A stretch of DNA of 36,976 nucleotides from Nitrospirae bacterium MYbinv3 (GTDB lineage: Bacteria > Nitrospirota > Thermodesulfovibrionia > Thermodesulfovibrionales > Magnetobacteriaceae). Made by a program: the position numbers and the translations under genes. The notes beneath the pieces were generated by a model, which worked only from the letters and a program-made list of their open reading frames with translations, made no database searches and was not told where the DNA came from. Shown one piece after another: positions 3,449 through 28,826 of this stretch; position 1 is the first letter of the stretch, and each line of letters starts with the position of its first letter. Where the stretch lies: assembly GCA_002753395.1 (NCBI GenBank), contig PEAB01000031.1, positions 1 through 36,976 of the forward strand, in the 5' to 3' direction.

Positions 3449-5593
3449 ATGGCAGGGTCGGTTATAATTAGGTTAGACGAGTTGCTTAGTAAGATAGCTT
3501 CATACAATCCTGACGCCAATACTGAGCTTATAAGGTTAGCGTATCATTTTACACACGAGGCTCATTGCGACCAGAAACGGCGGGAAGGCACCCCATATGT
3601 GGGGCATCCGTTGTCCGTTGCCTCTATATTAGCCGACATGCACCTGGACTGCACGACTATTACTGCTGGCCTGTTGCACGACACAGTAGAGGACACTGAT
3701 ACTACTATTGATGATATTAGTGACATGTTTGGCGTAGACGTAGCATACATGGTTAACGCCGTGACCAAGTTGAAACAGATGGAGTTTAAGACCAGAGAGG
3801 AAGCTCAGGCGGAGAACTTCAGGAAGATGTTTTTGGCTATGGCCGAGGATGTGCGTGTAATCCTGATTAAATTTGCCGACAGACTGCACAACATGAGAAC
3901 ACTAGCCTTTATGCCAACAGAGAAGCAAAAGCGTATATCGGCTGAGACACTGGATATCTATGCCCCGCTGGCCAATCGCCTCGGTATAGGGTGGCTTAGG
4001 GCCGAATTCGAGGACCTTGGCTTCAAACACCTGCACCCTGAACTCTACGAGGAGATCTCACGCAAGGTCGCAGAGAAACGTCACGACCGTGAAGACTTTA
4101 TAAAGGAATTAGCCCTAAACGTGGAGGCAAAACTAAAGGAACACAATGTTTTTGCAAGGGTCAGCGGGAGGGTAAAAAACTACTATGGCATATACCAGAA
4201 GATGCTCAAACAGAGGGTCTCCTTTGAAGAGGTCAATGACATCTTGGGCCTTAGAATAATAACGCAGTCCAAGGAGCAGTGCTACATGACCATGGGCATA
4301 ATACACTCAATGTGGATCCCTGTACCGGGCAGGTTCAAGGACTATATTGCCATACCCAAGGCCAATATGTACCAATCCCTGCACACCACTGTGCTTAGCT
4401 CAAACGGGGAGCGGATCGAATTCCAGATAAGGACGGAGGATATGCACCTGTTGGCAGAGAGGGGGATAGCCTCTCACTGGATCTACAAGGAAAAGGAACG
4501 GCCCTTTGACGACAGGGACGCCAAGTACTTTAACTGGCTCAGAGAGCTAATCTACATGCAGAAAGACTCAAGCGACGCCAAGGACTTCCTCGAGATGTTC
4601 AAGGGCGAGGTGTTTCAGGATGTCGTGTTCGTTCTGACGCCGGCTGGAGAGATAAAGGAGCTGCCAACCGGTTCTACTCCTATCGACTTCGCTTTCGCAA
4701 TCCACTCCGAGGTTGGTAACAGGTGCGTGGGCTGCCGTATAAACGGCAGGATTGTCCCCCTTAAATACCATCTAAAAAACGGCGATATTGTCGAAATTCT
4801 GACCTCTGCCTCACAAACGCCAAGCAAGGACTGGTTGAGTTTTGTCGTAACGCACAAGGCGCGCAGCCGTATCAGGCACTGGATAAAATCCGAACAGCGT
4901 AAACAGGCTGTAACTCTGGGTGCTGCCATGCTTGAAGATGACTTCAGAAAAAACAGCCTCAGCCTGTCCCTCTTAAAGTCCAAGAAGATGATAGAGGTTG
5001 TGCATACGTTTAATCTCAGAACCTTTGAGGAGCTGTGCGTCGAAATTGGCTATGGCAAGCTCTCAGCTCATCAGGTCGTTAATAGGTTAAAGCCAGACAA
5101 GCACCCAACAGAAGTAGAACCTATATCCATAAAACCACCTAAAAAGAGCAAGCCACATAAGGGTATACAGATTACCGGTATAGACAACCTGCTCTACAAC
5201 ACTGCAAAGTGCTGTTTCCCCGTACCCGGAGACAGTGTGATGGGCTTTATTACAAGAGGCAAGGGTGTCACCATTCACAGACTCGACTGCAATAACTATC
5301 AACGCCTGGCCGTAGAAGACTCAAGGCTGGTTAAGATTTCCTGGGATGCCAGCGGAGATGTTACAACCACAACAAGGCTGTATGTTGAGACTATCGACAA
5401 ACCAGGTATCCTGGCAACCCTAAGCTCACTGATCTCAACGTTTAATATAAACCTCTCTCAACTGGAAGCCAGATCAGCCCAAAACAAACACGCACACTTT
5501 GCCTTCACCCTGGAGGTCAAAGATAAGGTTCAACTGACCAACCTCAGCAACAAACTCATGTCCGTAGACGGCGTGATCAGCGTACACAGATAA
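3449..5593 (+). CDS. rel: Bifunctional (p)ppGpp synthetase/hydrolase, Rel/SpoT family
   Basis: This enzyme makes and degrades the stringent-response alarmone (p)ppGpp. Seen, in order: an HD hydrolase domain with H53, HD at 77-78 and ED at 81-82, followed by FADRLHNM; a synthetase domain with GRVKNYYG, DILGLRI, and GRFKDYIAIPKANMYQSLHT ending in EFQIRT; a TGS domain (VFVLTPAGEIKELPTGSTPIDFAF) near residues 390-450; and a C-terminal ACT domain from about residue 640. The RFKD motif is the RxKD signature of bifunctional Rel/SpoT enzymes, as opposed to the ExDD of RelA-type synthetases. The hydrolase motifs are intact, so both activities are expected. The 714-residue length is typical. The ATG at 3449 has only a weak ribosome binding site, with TATAAT-like sequences just upstream. 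Confidence 0.95.
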   Translation: MAGSVIIRLDELLSKIASYNPDANTELIRLAYHFTHEAHCDQKRREGTPYVGHPLSVASILADMHLDCTTITAGLLHDTVEDTDTTIDDISDMFGVDVAYMVNAVTKLKQMEFKTREEAQAENFRKMFLAMAEDVRVILIKFADRLHNMRTLAFMPTEKQKRISAETLDIYAPLANRLGIGWLRAEFEDLGFKHLHPELYEEISRKVAEKRHDREDFIKELALNVEAKLKEHNVFARVSGRVKNYYGIYQKMLKQRVSFEEVNDILGLRIITQSKEQCYMTMGIIHSMWIPVPGRFKDYIAIPKANMYQSLHTTVLSSNGERIEFQIRTEDMHLLAERGIASHWIYKEKERPFDDRDAKYFNWLRELIYMQKDSSDAKDFLEMFKGEVFQDVVFVLTPAGEIKELPTGSTPIDFAFAIHSEVGNRCVGCRINGRIVPLKYHLKNGDIVEILTSASQTPSKDWLSFVVTHKARSRIRHWIKSEQRKQAVTLGAAMLEDDFRKNSLSLSLLKSKKMIEVVHTFNLRTFEELCVEIGYGKLSAHQVVNRLKPDKHPTEVEPISIKPPKKSKPHKGIQITGIDNLLYNTAKCCFPVPGDSVMGFITRGKGVTIHRLDCNNYQRLAVEDSRLVKISWDASGDVTTTTRLYVETIDKPGILATLSSLISTFNINLSQLEARSAQNKHAHFAFTLEVKDKVQLTNLSNKLMSVDGVISVHR

Positions 5594-5610
5594 TAAAAAA
5601 AAGGTGATAG

Positions 5611-5757
5611 CTATCTTTTGCACTTTTTTATAAACCAGCATTCTATGCAGCTCTTGAAGATAGATTCCCGCTTTCGCGGGAATGACAGCAAATAGCGTTT
5701 TGAGTTGTTCTATGTCATTCCTGCGTAAGCAGGAATCCAGAAAGTGTAAAACTATAG
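5611..5757. mobile_element. MITE-like element, family B copy 1
   Basis: The element is about 147 bases. The left end CTATCTTTTGCACTTTTTTATA pairs with the right end, read on the minus strand as CTATAGTTTTACACTTTCTGG. The interior has two hairpins: ATTCCCGCTTTCGCGGGAAT and ATTCCTGCGTAAGCAGGAAT. It fills most of the gap between rel and the P-type ATPase and ends 18 bases before that ATPase's ATG. It is non-coding; the apparent 138-residue minus-strand reading frame across it is an artefact. Confidence 0.8.
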
Positions 5758-5775
5758 GTAATAGTTCATTATACG

Positions 5776-8361
5776 ATGGATAAAAAGACTGGTGTAATAG
5801 ACGGGTTTGATATCCACTCCATAGTCGGGCTTTCTGAGGACGAGGCAGCCTTGCGGCTGAAGAGAGACGGGTATAACGAGCTTCCCGCATCTAAGAGACG
5901 AGGTATCTTTAATATTGTCTTCGAGGTGTTTCGTGAACCGATGTTTCTGCTTCTGATTGCGGGTGGGACTATATATTTAGTAATAGGCGATACGCAGGAG
6001 GCCTTAATGCTCCTGGGATTTGTGTTTGTGGTTATCAACATTACCATCTATCAGGAACGCAAAACTGAACATGCCTTAGAGGCATTAAGGGATCTGTCTT
6101 CCCCGCGGGCATTACTTATAAGAAATAGAGAGCATAAGAGAATCCCAGGGCGAGAGGTTGTAAGAGGTGATACGATAATCCTCTCAGAGGGTGATCGCGT
6201 CGTTGCCGATTCGGTTCTGATATACTGCATCAGTCTATCTGTTGATGAGTCGCTTTTAACTGGCGAGTCAATACCGGTAACCAAGATCACCGGTCGTGAG
6301 GACATGGAGATGTCAAGGCCAGGGGGTGATGCACAGCCTTTTGTTTACTCAGGTACATTGGTAGTAAAGGGTTTTGGCGTGGCAGTGGTTAAAAAGGCAG
6401 GCGCTGACACTGAGATGGGGTTGATTGGAAATGCCTTGCTGTCTATCGAATATGAACAGACTATACTGCAAAGAGAGATGGGGAGGATAGTGCGCACTAT
6501 AGCTGTCATAGGGCTGTCGCTTTGTGTCATCGTGGCTGTCGTACATGGGGCGATGCAGAAGGATTGGCTCAATGGGCTCCTTGCAGGGATAACGCTTGCT
6601 ATGGCCATACTGCCGGAGGAGTTTCCCGTTGTCTTTACGATCTTTCTTGCCATTGGCGCATGGCGTATGTCAAAGAAGAACGTCCTCACCAGGCGGGTGA
6701 CATCAGTTGAGACCCTTGGGGCGGCCTCCGTCCTGTGTGTGGATAAGACAGGCACAATAACGCTAAATCGGATGACCGTCAGTAAGATCATAGTTGACGG
6801 CCATGTCTACGACATAGGAGATACAGCCTTTCCTATTGAAGAGACACTGCACGAGGTTTTAGAGTTTGGCATACTCGCCAGTCAGATGGCCCCGTTTGAC
6901 CCAATGGAGAAGGCTATAAGCGATATTGGTCTTAATAAGCTCTCCGGTACAGAGCACATCCATAGCAATTGGACATTAGTACAAGAGTATCCTCTGTCAG
7001 AGAACCTGTTGGCAATGTCTCGTGTCTATAAGTCGCCTGACAACGACAGCTTTATCATAGCAGCCAAGGGTGCACCCGAGGCCATTGCAGACATCTGTCA
7101 CCTGGATAAAGAACAGCAATTGCAATTGTCCAGGAATATTGATTTAATGGCAAGAGATGGCTTGAGGGTTATCGGTGTGGCAAAGTCCGAGTTTGAGGAG
7201 AGCAGTCTGCCACAGGAGCAGCATGATTTTAGGTTTCAGTTCTTAGGTCTTATTGGTCTGTCAGACCCGGTACGTAATGGTGTTAAAGATGCCATAAAGG
7301 AATGCTATGATGCTGGCATCAGGGTTGTCATGATCACGGGGGATTACTCTATTACGGCCCAAAAGATAGCACAACAGATAGGGTTAGCGTCCTCGGATCA
7401 GATAATTACGGGTGAGCAACTCAGCAGTCTCAATGACTTAGAGCTACAGAACAGGATCAAAACTGTGAACATCTTTGCCCGCGTCGTGCCTGAGCAAAAA
7501 CTGCGTATTATAAATGCGCTTAAGGCCAACGGTGAGGTTGTAGCAATGACAGGTGATGGCGTTAATGACGCCCCTGCCCTGAAGTCCGCTCACATAGGCA
7601 TCGCAATGGGCGGGCGCGGAACGGATGTGGCACGTGAGGCGTCGGATATCGTTTTGCTTGATGATGACTTTTCCTCCATCGTTCAGGCGGTAAGGATGGG
7701 AAGACGGATATTTGCCAATCTCAAAAAAGCAATCTCATACATTATTGCCATTCACGTCCCTATCGCGGGCATCTCGTTGTTACCGGTTTTTTTCAATTGG
7801 AATCTTATCCTCTTGCCAGTGCACATAGTGTTTCTCGAGCTGATTATTGACCCAGCCTGTTCTATTGTCTTTGAGGTGGAGCCCGAGGAGGCCGACGTTA
7901 TGAACAAACCACCGCGGCAACTGAAAGAACCATTGTTTAACAAGGCGACCCTAACGTATAGTATCATGCAAGGTTTTGTTGTGTTACTTGTTGTAATGAT
8001 GGTATATACTGCAGCCAGATATCTTAACTTTGGAGAAACGGATGCCAGGACACTTGGTTTTACAACATTAATAGTTGCAAACATGTGTCTGATTTTAACA
8101 AACCGTTCGTGGTCTCAGACGATATTATCCACGCTGAATTGTAAGAACTCGGCCCTCTGGTGGATACTAAGCGGCACTGTTTTGTTTTTAGGGTTAGTCC
8201 TCTACGTTCCGGTATTAAGGGAGCTCTTCCACTTCTGCACGTTACACGTAGGCGACCTGGTTGTCTGCCTGGCTCTTGGTATTATAAGCATACTATGGTT
8301 TGAAGGGGTTAAGGTGGTTAAAAAAAATAGAAACAGGTACGCTGCTCCCCATCACCCCTAA
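5776..8361 (+). CDS. P-type cation-transporting ATPase (P2/calcium-pump-like)
   Basis: This is an ATP-driven inner-membrane cation pump of 861 residues. Seen: an N-terminal cation-ATPase domain (residues ~15-75), the actuator loop TGES at 162-165, the phosphorylation motif DKTGT with Asp323, the ATP-binding region (KGAPEAIAD, DPVRNGVKDAI), the hinge TGDGVNDAPAL near residue 590, and about ten membrane segments, four of them C-terminal. The overall order matches P2-type (Ca2+, Na+/K+-like) pumps. The fourth membrane segment reads ILPEEFPVV (279-286), where classical Ca2+ pumps have PEGLPAV; this motif helps set ion specificity, so the ion is not assigned. The ATG lies 18 bases after a MITE-like element, so the promoter or leader lies within or upstream of it. 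Confidence 0.9.
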   Translation: MDKKTGVIDGFDIHSIVGLSEDEAALRLKRDGYNELPASKRRGIFNIVFEVFREPMFLLLIAGGTIYLVIGDTQEALMLLGFVFVVINITIYQERKTEHALEALRDLSSPRALLIRNREHKRIPGREVVRGDTIILSEGDRVVADSVLIYCISLSVDESLLTGESIPVTKITGREDMEMSRPGGDAQPFVYSGTLVVKGFGVAVVKKAGADTEMGLIGNALLSIEYEQTILQREMGRIVRTIAVIGLSLCVIVAVVHGAMQKDWLNGLLAGITLAMAILPEEFPVVFTIFLAIGAWRMSKKNVLTRRVTSVETLGAASVLCVDKTGTITLNRMTVSKIIVDGHVYDIGDTAFPIEETLHEVLEFGILASQMAPFDPMEKAISDIGLNKLSGTEHIHSNWTLVQEYPLSENLLAMSRVYKSPDNDSFIIAAKGAPEAIADICHLDKEQQLQLSRNIDLMARDGLRVIGVAKSEFEESSLPQEQHDFRFQFLGLIGLSDPVRNGVKDAIKECYDAGIRVVMITGDYSITAQKIAQQIGLASSDQIITGEQLSSLNDLELQNRIKTVNIFARVVPEQKLRIINALKANGEVVAMTGDGVNDAPALKSAHIGIAMGGRGTDVAREASDIVLLDDDFSSIVQAVRMGRRIFANLKKAISYIIAIHVPIAGISLLPVFFNWNLILLPVHIVFLELIIDPACSIVFEVEPEEADVMNKPPRQLKEPLFNKATLTYSIMQGFVVLLVVMMVYTAARYLNFGETDARTLGFTTLIVANMCLILTNRSWSQTILSTLNCKNSALWWILSGTVLFLGLVLYVPVLRELFHFCTLHVGDLVVCLALGIISILWFEGVKVVKKNRNRYAAPHHP

Positions 8362-19669: not shown

Positions 19670-20535
19670 AACATCTCAGCAAAGTCTGGTTTCAGGTACT
19701 TAAACACGGCCCCTCCCAAAAGGCAGACGACAACGCTCAAGATTCCGAGATAAAGCATCCCGTCATAAAAGCCCTCTGAAGGAATCCCCGCGTTTAATAT
19801 GGCAGTTCGGTAACCTCCTACGATATGATACAGCGGATTTACCCTTAAAAGCGGCTGTAAGCTGTCTGGAATGCTTGACGGCTCATACACAATGGGTGTA
19901 TAAAAAAACCACAGGCCTATTGCGACGTTGAGCACCTGTCCAACGTCTCGTACATATATGTAAGCAGCAGAGAGGCACCAGCTCAGACCGATGGTAAAAA
20001 GGCTCAGAAGGATAACGTAAACGGGCAGATACAAAAGCGTATAAGTGAGCCTTCTGTCGATCACGACAACAAGCAGCATGATTATGATAAACATGATAGC
20101 GTGCTTTACCAGGTTGGCCAACAGATTGCCCAGCAATAAAAGTTCAGAAGGAAAGACGCTCTTTGTTATAATCGTCTTGTTTTCTATCAGTATGCTCAAG
20201 GAGCGCTGTATCGTTTCAGAGAAGAAAAACCACGGTAAGATACCGCTAAGCAGCCACAACAAAAAGCTGTTCGTCCCGGCGTGTTGTCCAAGCCTGGATC
20301 TCAGAACGTATGAGAAGACAAACGTATAAGTAGCAACCGTGGCAACAGGATGTATTATAGCCCATGTAAAGCCTATAAGCGAATCTGCGTAGCGGCTTTT
20401 TAGTTCACGTATCACCAGGCATTTTAGCATATGTCTGTTTGTTACAATCTTGTCTACAAAGCGGCTTGCTGTACCTATTATTGCCTCTATAACTCTATGT
20501 AAAAGACTATATAAGGGCCGCCTCGAATCAGTCAT
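19666..20535 (-). CDS. wzm: O-antigen/polysaccharide ABC-2 transporter permease (Wzm-like)
   Basis: This is the inner-membrane subunit that carries lipid-linked polysaccharide to the periplasm. Seen: an N-terminal amphipathic region, then LVIRELKSRYADSLIGFTWAIIHP, the classic ABC2-membrane start, and about six membrane helices ending in YHIVGGYRTAILN and a last hydrophobic segment. The length (289 residues) is typical. I prefer the ATG at 20535 (MTDSRRP) over the TTG two codons upstream. Only a weak GGA lies upstream. The gene heads the wzm-wzt-pyruvyl transferase operon. A family B MITE begins 30 bases upstream of the ATG and therefore separates the operon from any older promoter. Confidence 0.92.
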   Translation of the reverse strand: MTDSRRPLYSLLHRVIEAIIGTASRFVDKIVTNRHMLKCLVIRELKSRYADSLIGFTWAIIHPVATVATYTFVFSYVLRSRLGQHAGTNSFLLWLLSGILPWFFFSETIQRSLSILIENKTIITKSVFPSELLLLGNLLANLVKHAIMFIIIMLLVVVIDRRLTYTLLYLPVYVILLSLFTIGLSWCLSAAYIYVRDVGQVLNVAIGLWFFYTPIVYEPSSIPDSLQPLLRVNPLYHIVGGYRTAILNAGIPSEGFYDGMLYLGILSVVVCLLGGAVFKYLKPDFAEML

Positions 20536-20564
20536 TCTCAATATCCAAAATATATCTCATACAA

Positions 20565-20712
20565 CTATAGTTTTGCACTTTCTGGATTCCTGCTTACGCA
20601 GGAATGACATGGAACAGCTAAAAACGCCATTTGCTGTCATTCCCGCGAAAGCGGGAATCTATTTTCAAGAGTTGCATAAAATGCTGGTTTATAAAAAAGT
20701 GCAAAAGTATAG
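20565..20712. mobile_element. MITE-like element, family B copy 2
   Basis: The element is about 148 bases, in the opposite orientation to copy 1. Its ends are CTATAGTTTTGCACTTTCTGG and, from the right on the minus strand, CTATACTTTTGCACTTTTTTATA. The core holds ATTCCTGCTTACGCAGGAAT and ATTCCCGCGAAAGCGGGAAT hairpins. It sits upstream of wzm. The following stretch, 20713-20899, has nothing I recognise beyond AT-rich sequence. Confidence 0.8.
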
Positions 20713-20899
20713 ATACAACATTGTCATTCATTAGATAAAATATAATGACTCCTTGTTTCTTGTCAAGCAGTAGACGGGGCTTTGGGGGTGCTTAAGAACT
20801 ACCATGACCTTACGGACACAACAAGCAATGAAAGTCCTTGATTATGTAGGATATTTTTAGACTTTCATATAAAATTAATGAGAACAAAGATATCTTTTA

Positions 20900-26300: not shown

Positions 26301-27920
26301 TCAAGCTGGGAAGGGTTTATCTCGTTTGTGGTCGACGATGCAAAAGAAGCCAAAGGGGGCGCTTGACCCATTGCTCAACTGATGGGGCTTTAGCGGCGGG
26401 ACGTAGGCGACGTCAAAGGGTCTCAGTGCATACCTGTTATCGCCGATAATCAAAATGCCTTCGCCTCTGATGCAGATGATCACGTGTATGTGAACATGCC
26501 TCTCAAAAGACGAATAACCTCCCGGCTCTATCTGAAAGTATCTGACGTCAAACCGAGTGCCCTCACCGTACCTGCCGATAAGCTCATGCCTGGTTATATG
26601 CCTAAAGGGCAGACTGTCATCATCCTTGTACAACCGTGGTGGCCGACCAGTCCAGCTAAAATCAGCGCAAAACGGCATATGCTCAAACACGTCTTCAAAC
26701 AAACCACCAGCTGATTCAATCACATGGATATCACAACTGGACTGATTGACAACCTGTGTGATTGACACCTGCCTTTGGGTGTGTGAAAATAAAGCGGTTA
26801 TCTTTTCAAGAAAAGCCTCTGTGCTTTTCCTTATGTCAGATGCGTCCTTTAAGAGAGAGCCTCCGATGGTGTATACGGCATCCGCACCGTACATGGAGGC
26901 CATCTCGTGGAGGTTATCGAGTTTCATGCCCCCGGCTGGCGCTGGAAAAGCCGCCTTCAACTGACTAAACGAGCCTCTCAGGCTGTGAGATAGACTCAGA
27001 CACTCCTCTGGTGTGAAATTAAACCGGCCTCCGGCGTTGGGGAAGATGGAGATGTCAGCGCCCATCAGACGAAACACACTGCCCAACAACACCGACGGCC
27101 TTATGCCATGATCTGGGTCATGGAAGTAGGCTCCGGTCAGCGCCGGATGTGCCATGATGATTATCCGGTAGACAGAGGCCAAATACCTCACCGTGTCAAG
27201 CCCTACGAGGTAAGGTGCAATGAGCACGCCAGAGACGCCGTGTCGTAGGGCAAACTGGATGCGCCCATCAATCTTTTCAACGCTGTCAACGATGTTTGGG
27301 AAGTAGAGGGTATTATGACCGGTCTTGGCATTAGCTGCCACGACAGCCTGTTGACAGAGGGACACGCGCCCTTCATAGGAGCAAAAGGGATGATCTACCA
27401 GCCCGTGGTCATCCTTGATAATATCTGCTCCGCCCAATGCAAACTCTGAGGCCATCTGAGCAAGGGCTGCGGCTGAAAGCCCCATAGGTTTTAATACGGC
27501 ACACAACAACGGCCTTCCATATACGCCTAGCACCTTGCGAATACCCTCAATGCCATAGACAGGCCCGTTAAAGGCCCTTAGGAAGTCGTTGGAGAGATCA
27601 ATCCCGACAACCCTTACGTTATCCATAAACGAGATATTGCCAAACAGGACGTTTAAAAACTGCGGCAGTTGATATGCGGTTACCTCGGGGTTATACGACA
27701 GGATACAACGGTAACGTCCCCCTGCTTTATCCAGGGGGACGATATCTTTAATTATAGCGACTATCCTGGTGTTTATATCGGGTTGATCGAAGAAAAAGCC
27801 ATCTGGTACCTCTACTGTTTGCTCAAGGGCGATCTCTCTAAGGAGTTTTTCTATGTCTTGTCCTTGCTGCCCCCTATGATGAGGTGTTATCTCATAAGTG
27901 ATGTCGATAGAGGTTGACAT
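26301..27920 (-). CDS. RuBisCO-like protein (form IV) fused to a C-terminal cupin
   Basis: The protein has 539 residues. Residues ~1-385 follow the RuBisCO large-subunit fold: FGNISFMDNVRVVGID (93-108), LLCAVLKPMGLS (138-149), GGADIIKDDHGL (163-174), AHPALTGAYF (257-266), and late GGMKL and IGGSLL. The catalytic set is not that of a carboxylase: in KDDH the glutamate of KDDE is replaced by His172, the second loop lysine of KPK is Met146, and there is no loop-6 lysine. That points to form IV of the non-photosynthetic type. Residues ~440-539 are a cupin with histidines 475, 477, 479 (FERHVHIHV) and 513 (KPHQLSN) as likely metal ligands. Nearest precedent: the separate RuBisCO-like isomerase and cupin methylsulfurylase of the R. 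rubrum MTA-isoprenoid shunt. It starts 12 bases after the fumarase-alpha-like gene, with no strong ribosome binding site. Confidence 0.88.
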   Translation of the reverse strand: MSTSIDITYEITPHHRGQQGQDIEKLLREIALEQTVEVPDGFFFDQPDINTRIVAIIKDIVPLDKAGGRYRCILSYNPEVTAYQLPQFLNVLFGNISFMDNVRVVGIDLSNDFLRAFNGPVYGIEGIRKVLGVYGRPLLCAVLKPMGLSAAALAQMASEFALGGADIIKDDHGLVDHPFCSYEGRVSLCQQAVVAANAKTGHNTLYFPNIVDSVEKIDGRIQFALRHGVSGVLIAPYLVGLDTVRYLASVYRIIIMAHPALTGAYFHDPDHGIRPSVLLGSVFRLMGADISIFPNAGGRFNFTPEECLSLSHSLRGSFSQLKAAFPAPAGGMKLDNLHEMASMYGADAVYTIGGSLLKDASDIRKSTEAFLEKITALFSHTQRQVSITQVVNQSSCDIHVIESAGGLFEDVFEHMPFCADFSWTGRPPRLYKDDDSLPFRHITRHELIGRYGEGTRFDVRYFQIEPGGYSSFERHVHIHVIICIRGEGILIIGDNRYALRPFDVAYVPPLKPHQLSNGSSAPFGFFCIVDHKRDKPFPA

Positions 27921-27932
27921 AGTGGTAGAGTG

Positions 27933-28826
27933 TCAACCCCAGATCAGCCTTCCATGTCTGTTGGCCCAACAGCATATGGTTACGTTTACCACAAGGGCGG
28001 AGGAGTCTGAGTAACTCCCGCCTATCTTAACCCCCAAGGTTGTAGTCTCAATGCCAGGTTCAGAGACATCATCCTGGGCTTTTAAGTCCGCTAGAACATC
28101 TTTTTCAAGCCCTTGGAGGGCAATTATGGGGTTGCTGTCGTTAAGCCTTCTTAGTAGCTGCTTCCTAGCTAGCAGGGCAGCGTCATCCTCTTGTGTTCCC
28201 AGACCAACCCCTATTGTGTATGGAGAACAAACGCCTTTCTTTGCCTTTTTCACAGTTTCCAATATGATATCTCTGATTTCGTTACGGTATCTTTCGGCAT
28301 CGGCTCCACCGGCGTTATTGGGTTGTATGGCAACCAGACCACTGTCCTGCAGCAGCGACAGTCCTTCACTGTGCTGACAATCTGTGTTTCTAAGCAACAG
28401 GTCGATTACGAGGCTGGACCTGTCAGAGTCTTCAAAGTAGATGACAGGATTGACCGTATCCACAGTCTCTTCTGCCAAGCCCAACGTTGTGCCCGGTTCA
28501 CTCTTGTCTGAGGGTTGGTTATGCAGTCTTGAGACAGCCTGCCTGCAGCCCTCTACGATATCGGAGCTTATCATTTCCCGATCAAGGCCTTGTGGTATTT
28601 GTACCCAAAATATTGGTATCCCAATGTTATGACACAGCGGCTTTTTGCTGGTTTTTGCCTTTTTTACGTTTTCAATGATACCAGACAATACCGTGATCTT
28701 TGGAGACTCGCCGGTCTCGGCTGTCTCTGATGCACATGCCTGTTTTAAGGCGTCTTCAACGTCAGATGGTATCGATGAAGCCACCTTTGTGTATAACTCT
28801 ACGATGCCGTCCTTTAGCCTTAACAT
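27933..28826 (-). CDS. Divergent orphan class I fumarase/tartrate dehydratase alpha-like protein
   Basis: The 297 residues align by eye along the whole alpha subunit of class I (Fe-S) fumarases, but with striking changes. The usual CQDTG is PLCHNIG (Cys65), the KGGGSEN block is RNTDCQHSE (146-154), CPP is GVCSPY (Cys200), and the terminal VxCxAxR is TICCWANR (Cys285/286). The three cysteines that hold the 4Fe-4S cluster seem kept; the substrate-binding motifs are not. No beta subunit is adjacent. AAAGGT precedes the ATG at 28826. It lies between a parvulin gene (52 bases upstream) and the RuBisCO-like/cupin gene (12 bases downstream), so the three are likely one transcript. Function is open: a hydratase for another substrate, or a decayed paralogue. 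Confidence 0.75.
   Translation of the reverse strand: MLRLKDGIVELYTKVASSIPSDVEDALKQACASETAETGESPKITVLSGIIENVKKAKTSKKPLCHNIGIPIFWVQIPQGLDREMISSDIVEGCRQAVSRLHNQPSDKSEPGTTLGLAEETVDTVNPVIYFEDSDRSSLVIDLLLRNTDCQHSEGLSLLQDSGLVAIQPNNAGGADAERYRNEIRDIILETVKKAKKGVCSPYTIGVGLGTQEDDAALLARKQLLRRLNDSNPIIALQGLEKDVLADLKAQDDVSEPGIETTTLGVKIGGSYSDSSALVVNVTICCWANRHGRLIWG

Follow-up and report, generated by a model that had tools for sequence, protein, structure and literature searches.

The window analysed here, a contig of 36,976 nucleotides, is contig 46 of a 3.7-Mb genome (G000) that belongs to the same genus as Ca. Magnetobacterium casense. On its minus strand lies a gene with a single reading frame in which Pfam recognizes both RuBisCO_large (E 8e-28) and Cupin_2 (E 8e-12) (Table 1); the plus strand over the same interval carries stops throughout. 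With one 539-residue frame and both Pfam domains, the proposal of the first-pass annotation that a RuBisCO-like protein (RLP) and a cupin are joined in one gene is borne out. The same can be said of the residues it singled out: KDDH stands in place of KDDE, the loop-6 lysine is missing (the position reads FPNAGGRF) and the four histidines proposed as metal ligands, 475, 477, 479 and 513, are numbered exactly. None of these histidines varies across nine aligned fusion proteins, and neither do KDDH, E473 and C527. The linker, which had been put at ~55 residues (390-440), is shorter than claimed. Because homology to 3qfw ends at residue 375 and homology to Rru_A2000 starts at about 414, the true linker measures about 35-40 residues, and residues 418-440 belong to the cupin. 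Most fusions have 12-35 residues between the parts that match, and two fusions have 53.

Table 1. Features of the fusion gene and its upstream neighbour (window coordinates), with the loci of related cupin clusters.
Feature	Position	Strand	Evidence or remark
RLP-cupin fusion gene, 539 aa	26301..27920	-	ATG start; stop 26301-26303
RuBisCO-like isomerase domain (assigned by homology), residues 1-378	26787..27920	-	phmmer to 3qfw, residues 12-375, E 7e-70; tree
KDDH, residues 169-172	27405..27416	-	metal/carbamate-site motif, His replacing RuBisCO Glu204
A329-G330-G331	26928..26936	-	phosphate-site motif, Ala at RuBisCO Ser379 position
Linker, residues about 379-413	26682..26786	-	sequence and length variable
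Cupin domain, residues 414-539	26304..26681	-	homologue of the MTXu-5P methylsulfurylase Rru_A2000; phmmer, tree
H475-x-H477-x-H479 metal motif, after E473	26484..26498	-	same E-x-H-x-H-x-H in Rru_A2000
H513, likely fourth metal ligand, PHQ motif	26382..26384	-	conserved among fusions
C527 in GFxC, candidate thiol nucleophile or acceptor	26340..26342	-	conserved cysteine
Class I fumarase/tartrate-dehydratase alpha-like gene	27933..28826	-	12 bp upstream of fusion; TIGR00722 121 bits, cut-off 100.65
Zinc alcohol dehydrogenase and cupin clusters	L094:2830-5333; also L087-L090, L092, L093, L095, L096, L098-L100, L102; Planctomycetota L168		

The fumarase-like gene is probably co-transcribed with the fusion. 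It was rejected as a pathway partner, as it adjoins the fusion only in close relatives (L003, and L004 from Ca. Magnetobacterium casense) and not in Scalindua or the other family members read. Within the window it also adjoins a PpiC/SurA-type gene, and in genomes G083 and G062 this pair is kept, divergent from the fusion and about 3-4 kb off. In one genus an LsrF-type aldolase gene lies directly downstream of the fusion (L070:7920-8807, L073:1290-2177), and in the window's genome (G000 contig 85, L069) a gene of this type stands beside an aldolase/short-chain dehydrogenase. The window also carries two copies of an intergenic repeat, at about 5474-5890 (minus strand) and 20450-20734 (plus strand), whose reading frames give FLDSCLRRNDxEQLKTxFAVIPAKAGIYxQELHxMLVYKKVQK.

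The RLP half was placed in a maximum likelihood tree of 62 proteins, in which MtnW is represented by two sequences and 3qfw stands in for the R. rubrum RLP clade. All 23 fused RLPs fall on one branch (support 93/95), together with six cupin-adjacent RLPs, 3qfw and ten unfused planctomycete RLPs, and 3qfw is also the best PDB match of the RLP half, at 38% identity. The active site follows the same division. His at position 204, giving KDDH, is found in 23/23 fusions, 6/6 cupin-adjacent RLPs and 3qfw, and at the Ser379 site these same proteins all carry Ala, where the transketolase-linked RLPs have Gly (6/6). Over the whole set K175, K201, D203, E204 to H and S379 to A, every one of the 23 fusions matches 3qfw. 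A CO2-fixing RuBisCO was excluded, its Lys177, Glu204, Arg295, Lys334 and Ser379 being replaced here by Met, His, Pro, no lysine and Ala, and the NCBIfam score lying far under the cut-off. MtnW, the 2,3-diketo-5-methylthiopentyl-1-P enolase, also belongs to the RuBisCO superfamily and to methionine salvage, but it has Glu at position 204 (KDDE) and Ser at the Ser379 site and falls, like the transketolase-linked RLPs, outside the branch; the window protein reaches only 152 of 514 bits (TIGR03332) and 204 of 409 bits (NF007095) against the MtnW models. For the OiaX decarboxylase the NCBIfam score is 74 bits against a cut-off of 700. Thus neither of the two groupings that the first-pass annotation had set against its own reading, with MtnW or with OiaX, was found, and tree and active-site letters side with 3qfw. 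We take 3qfw to be R. palustris RLP1. The RLP closest to it in the tree (100/100) is that of Terrarubrum, whose next gene encodes a cupin grouping with Rru_A2000 (100/88), so that the cupin-partnered identity of the 3qfw clade is supported independently of this assumption.

For the cupin half, phmmer returned 3ibm (E 3e-25), 3jzv, which is Rru_A2000 (E 5e-24), and 3kgz (E 2e-18). Rru_A2000 is the R. rubrum methylsulfurylase of 1-methylthioxylulose-5-P (MTXu-5P) (PMC4958253). The window cupin is 37% identical to it, 41% identical to 3ibm and about 50% identical to stand-alone Nitrospirota cupins that occur without any RLP. In the cupin tree the fused cupins form one group (98/92), and Rru_A2000, 3kgz and the Terrarubrum cupin form another (100/99); the branching order among subclades is not settled, and the fused cupins stand as a group of their own. 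E-x-H-x-H-x-H, the distal His and GFxC are common to every cupin row compared, Rru_A2000 included. The match to the methylsulfurylase on which the earlier reading depended is supported, in that the best solved relatives are Rru_A2000 and its kin and the metal ligands are kept.

A search of 396 Nitrospirota genomes found the complete fusion in 12 of the 13 genomes of the window's family, the one-contig genome G083 included; the thirteenth, G326 (93% complete), lacks the fusion and also mtnA. Among Planctomycetota the fusion is present in Scalindua/Brocadiaceae records and in other lineages (G772, G615, G676, G630, G720 and G682), the copy in G676 being interrupted by a contig end. An assembly or frameshift artefact is ruled out because the single frame is seen again in numerous genomes, including one that consists of a single contig, and chance is ruled out because the frame recurs across two phyla. 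From this wide recurrence we infer that the fused frame is old and retained. The Scalindua fusions (L005-L009) group with those of Nitrospirota and not with those of other Planctomycetota (L132, L133, L140, L142; support 100/100), which suggests that the gene passed laterally between magnetotactic Nitrospirota and anammox bacteria. No second RLP was found in the window's genome.

The two halves also occur as separate genes, RLP then cupin, in Nitrospirota sister lineages (L076, L077, L078, L079 and L080, from genomes G342, G227, G093, G236 and G203) and in Terrarubrum (L123). Unlike in the fusion, a stop codon separates the genes: in L076 a TAG stands between them, and in L078 and L079 they overlap. 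Among the Nitrospirota RLPs of the nearest branch the cupin is fused or adjacent in every one, and in our reading the unfused pairs directly support, from genome organization, a joint action of the two halves. The genes that follow the pair differ, being cysE in Terrarubrum (order RLP, cupin, cysE) and the mercury methylation genes hgcA and hgcB in G093 and G236 (L078:7711-10666, L079:4533-7488); in L078 HgcA scores 374 bits over an NCBIfam cut-off of 275 and HgcB 121 over 99.

Given these data, we consider the fusion most likely to be a bifunctional enzyme that acts in the MTA-isoprenoid shunt, with the RLP half as isomerase and the cupin half as methylsulfurylase, a reading that the available sequence tests support. 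MtnP would convert 5'-methylthioadenosine to methylthioribose-1-P, and MtnA would convert the latter to 5-methylthioribulose-1-P (MTRu-1P). By a 1,3-proton transfer that shifts the carbonyl, the RLP half would turn MTRu-1P into MTXu-5P, from which the metal-bound cupin half (HxHxH and H513) would pass the methylthio group to a thiol, which leaves 1-deoxyxylulose-5-P (DXP) for isoprenoid synthesis together with a donor of methanethiol. We infer both activities, the metal, C527 as a possible thiol site and a thiol other than glutathione. Channelling between the two sites is a further possibility: free R. rubrum RLP yields a 3:1 product mixture, and in one chain less MTXu-5P might escape, or more of it might form relative to its epimer MTRu-5P. 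An AlphaFold2 prediction with nine fusion sequences had a mean pLDDT of 44 and a pTM of 0.29, and the prediction, which at this pLDDT gives no geometric support for channelling, was not used. Against the shunt stand the modest identities of the two halves to their characterized relatives (38% for the RLP to 3qfw, 37% for the cupin to Rru_A2000) and the fact that the fused cupin is nearer to cupins that occur without an RLP.

Among the closest known systems is that of R. rubrum, where the same two enzyme families (Rru_A1998, of the DeepYkr clade, and Rru_A2000) act in the same order, and where the genome, like the window's, holds mtnP, mtnA and an O-acetylhomoserine sulfhydrylase. R. rubrum uses two separate proteins and glutathione, whereas the window encodes one chain and no GshB was found. 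In R. palustris RLP1 (RPA2169) and the cupin (RPA2170) are adjacent, unfused genes with knockout evidence (PMC5893883), and in both species the RLP and the cupin perform the isomerase and methylsulfurylase steps (PMC5893883, PMC4958253). The structures 3qfw and 3kgz resemble RPA2169 and RPA2170 by sequence; 3qfw shares about 38% identity with the RLP half of the fusion and 3kgz about 32% with the cupin half. The identity of 3kgz to Rru_A2000, 56%, is the value reported for RPA2170.

Of the genes that had been named as a check, three were found in the window's genome above their cut-offs: mtnA (C72, 411 bits) and mtnP (C52, 288 bits), which would act upstream of the fusion, and dxs (C114, 835 bits), the gene by which the DXP-using pathway downstream was assessed. 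An O-acetylhomoserine sulfhydrylase is present as well (C21, 651 bits summed), although none was found in six other family genomes, and no stand-alone MtnB-type aldolase was found in the window's genome. Co-occurrence of mtnA was dropped as evidence, since it was also present in 18 of the 20 control genomes, which are of the same order and lack the cupin; being nearly universal in the order, the gene is permissive and not diagnostic. On G000 contig 72 (L085:4033-6649) mtnA is followed, in one operon, by a polyprenyl synthetase gene and AMMECR1, and the same arrangement was seen by eye in L104, L105, L108, L111, L113, L122, L042 and L047, with the polyprenyl synthetase Pfam-confirmed in one. 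This gene order links MTA salvage to isoprenoids even without an RLP. The R. rubrum reaction uses glutathione as its thiol (PMC5893883), and GshB had no match in any of the six family genomes tested or in four other Nitrospirota. In the present bacteria glutathione is therefore probably replaced by another thiol, as judged from gene content, and the absence of GshB counts against identical chemistry and not against function, as the reaction could use such a thiol. Genome G203 (L080, L171; 94% complete) holds RLP and cupin, mtnA and mtnP, with no DXS over the cut-off, its partial dxs match being a split transketolase; here the shunt is a candidate for the sole source of DXP.

Other RLPs are encoded with a split transketolase and no cupin (L124:3695-9119, L125:3627-9047, with variants in L127 and L128, and L081:6068-9173). 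Two of these operons, from Alphaproteobacteria, read mtnK-mtnA-TK_N-TK_C-RLP, and the combination of RLP and split transketolase is also found in one Nitrospirota genome. These RLPs (Rhizobium and Mariluticola, with the Ponticoccus and Vibrio variants) are of the KDDH type, with KEDD in Vibrio, and several are tied to methylthioribose (MTR) salvage genes; they differ from the fusion in their lack of a cupin, in Gly at the Ser379 site and in falling on separate branches. They probably serve a further, undescribed fate of MTXu-5P.

In many genomes of the order that have no RLP, the nearest cupins are accompanied by a pair of zinc alcohol dehydrogenases (ADHs; Table 1). ADH2 (at least 55% identity) is present in 16/16 cupin genomes versus 0/19 others (Fisher p 2e-10), where the 16 were selected on their cupin, the 19 comprise the 13 genomes of the family and six that bear an RLP, and the p value ignores relatedness. 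In 13 of 16 loci read, ADH2 is found no more than a few kb from the cupin. The ADHs belong to the threonine-dehydrogenase/polyol-phosphate-dehydrogenase superfamily and score under every equivalog cut-off. Reducing the ketone at C2 and oxidizing C4 would bring about the same carbonyl shift as the RLP, and we put forward purely as a hypothesis that the ADH pair is a redox replacement for it. A broader and rather doubtful possibility is that two machines feed one methylthio-releasing cupin, namely the RLP, fused for direct hand-over and working by proton transfer, in Magnetobacterium-like bacteria and Scalindua, versus the zinc ADH pair, working by redox chemistry, in the RLP-free relatives; in both, the methylthio group would go to the GFxC cysteine or to some other thiol, glutathione playing no part.

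The same observations allow the fusion to be read in other ways. The RLP half might mainly isomerize 5-deoxyribulose-1-P, which arises from the 5'-deoxyadenosine left by radical-SAM enzymes, directly to DXP, with the cupin needed only for the methylthio-bearing substrate, and the enzyme would then be a general route from 5'-deoxynucleosides to DXP. MtnP and MtnA are at hand for this, 5'-deoxynucleosides enter a salvage shared by MTA and 5dAdo (PMC10986504), and the RLPs of related clades do without a cupin, having the transketolase pair instead. We nevertheless judge it unlikely, as a cupin would be needless for a sulfur-free substrate and yet accompanies all the nearest-branch Nitrospirota RLPs, fused or adjacent. 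That the cupin half might be some other metal-dependent sugar-phosphate enzyme or a binding domain, with the RLP isomerizing for a different pathway, is suggested by the functional diversity of cupins and by the position of the closest stand-alone cupins beside two zinc ADHs with no RLP; with all metal ligands and GFxC matching Rru_A2000, and cupins of the same family paired with an RLP in unfused operons, this seems quite unlikely.

An aldolase could also compete for the substrate, so that MTRu-1P is mainly cleaved as in a DHAP-type shunt and the fusion contributes little or serves some other purpose. The window's genome does encode a 682-aa aldolase/short-chain dehydrogenase beside an LsrF-type aldolase, and in G083 both genes are near the fusion, the LsrF-type gene directly after it. 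The 682-aa protein, however, belongs to the bifunctional aldolase/SDR (RhaD-like) family and is neither MtnB nor Ald2, and in the window's genome the aldolase is on a different contig from the fusion, which makes cleavage as the main route very improbable.

Form IV RubisCO was noted long ago in all magnetotactic Nitrospirota and in Scalindua (PMC10278575, PMC11344931, PMC3655542), with its function given as unknown or, vaguely, as 'sulfur metabolism', and Ca. Magnetobacterium was named as the nearest relative of the Scalindua protein (PMC3655542). In the portions of the open literature available to us no paper pairs Magnetobacterium with a cupin, and the papers that mention RubisCO-like proteins, fusion and cupins concern other fusions or the separate enzymes. 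Hence, although the RLP of these bacteria was already known, its fusion to a cupin is likely new as far as those portions of the open literature extend. The cupin half would give this long-noted form IV protein a specific reaction, namely an oxygen-independent conversion of a SAM waste product into DXP and methanethiol. The fusion may serve as a 'Rosetta stone' link between the two shunt enzymes and as a natural case for channelling, and it suggests a glutathione-free chemistry and an output of volatile sulfur in sediment and anammox bacteria.
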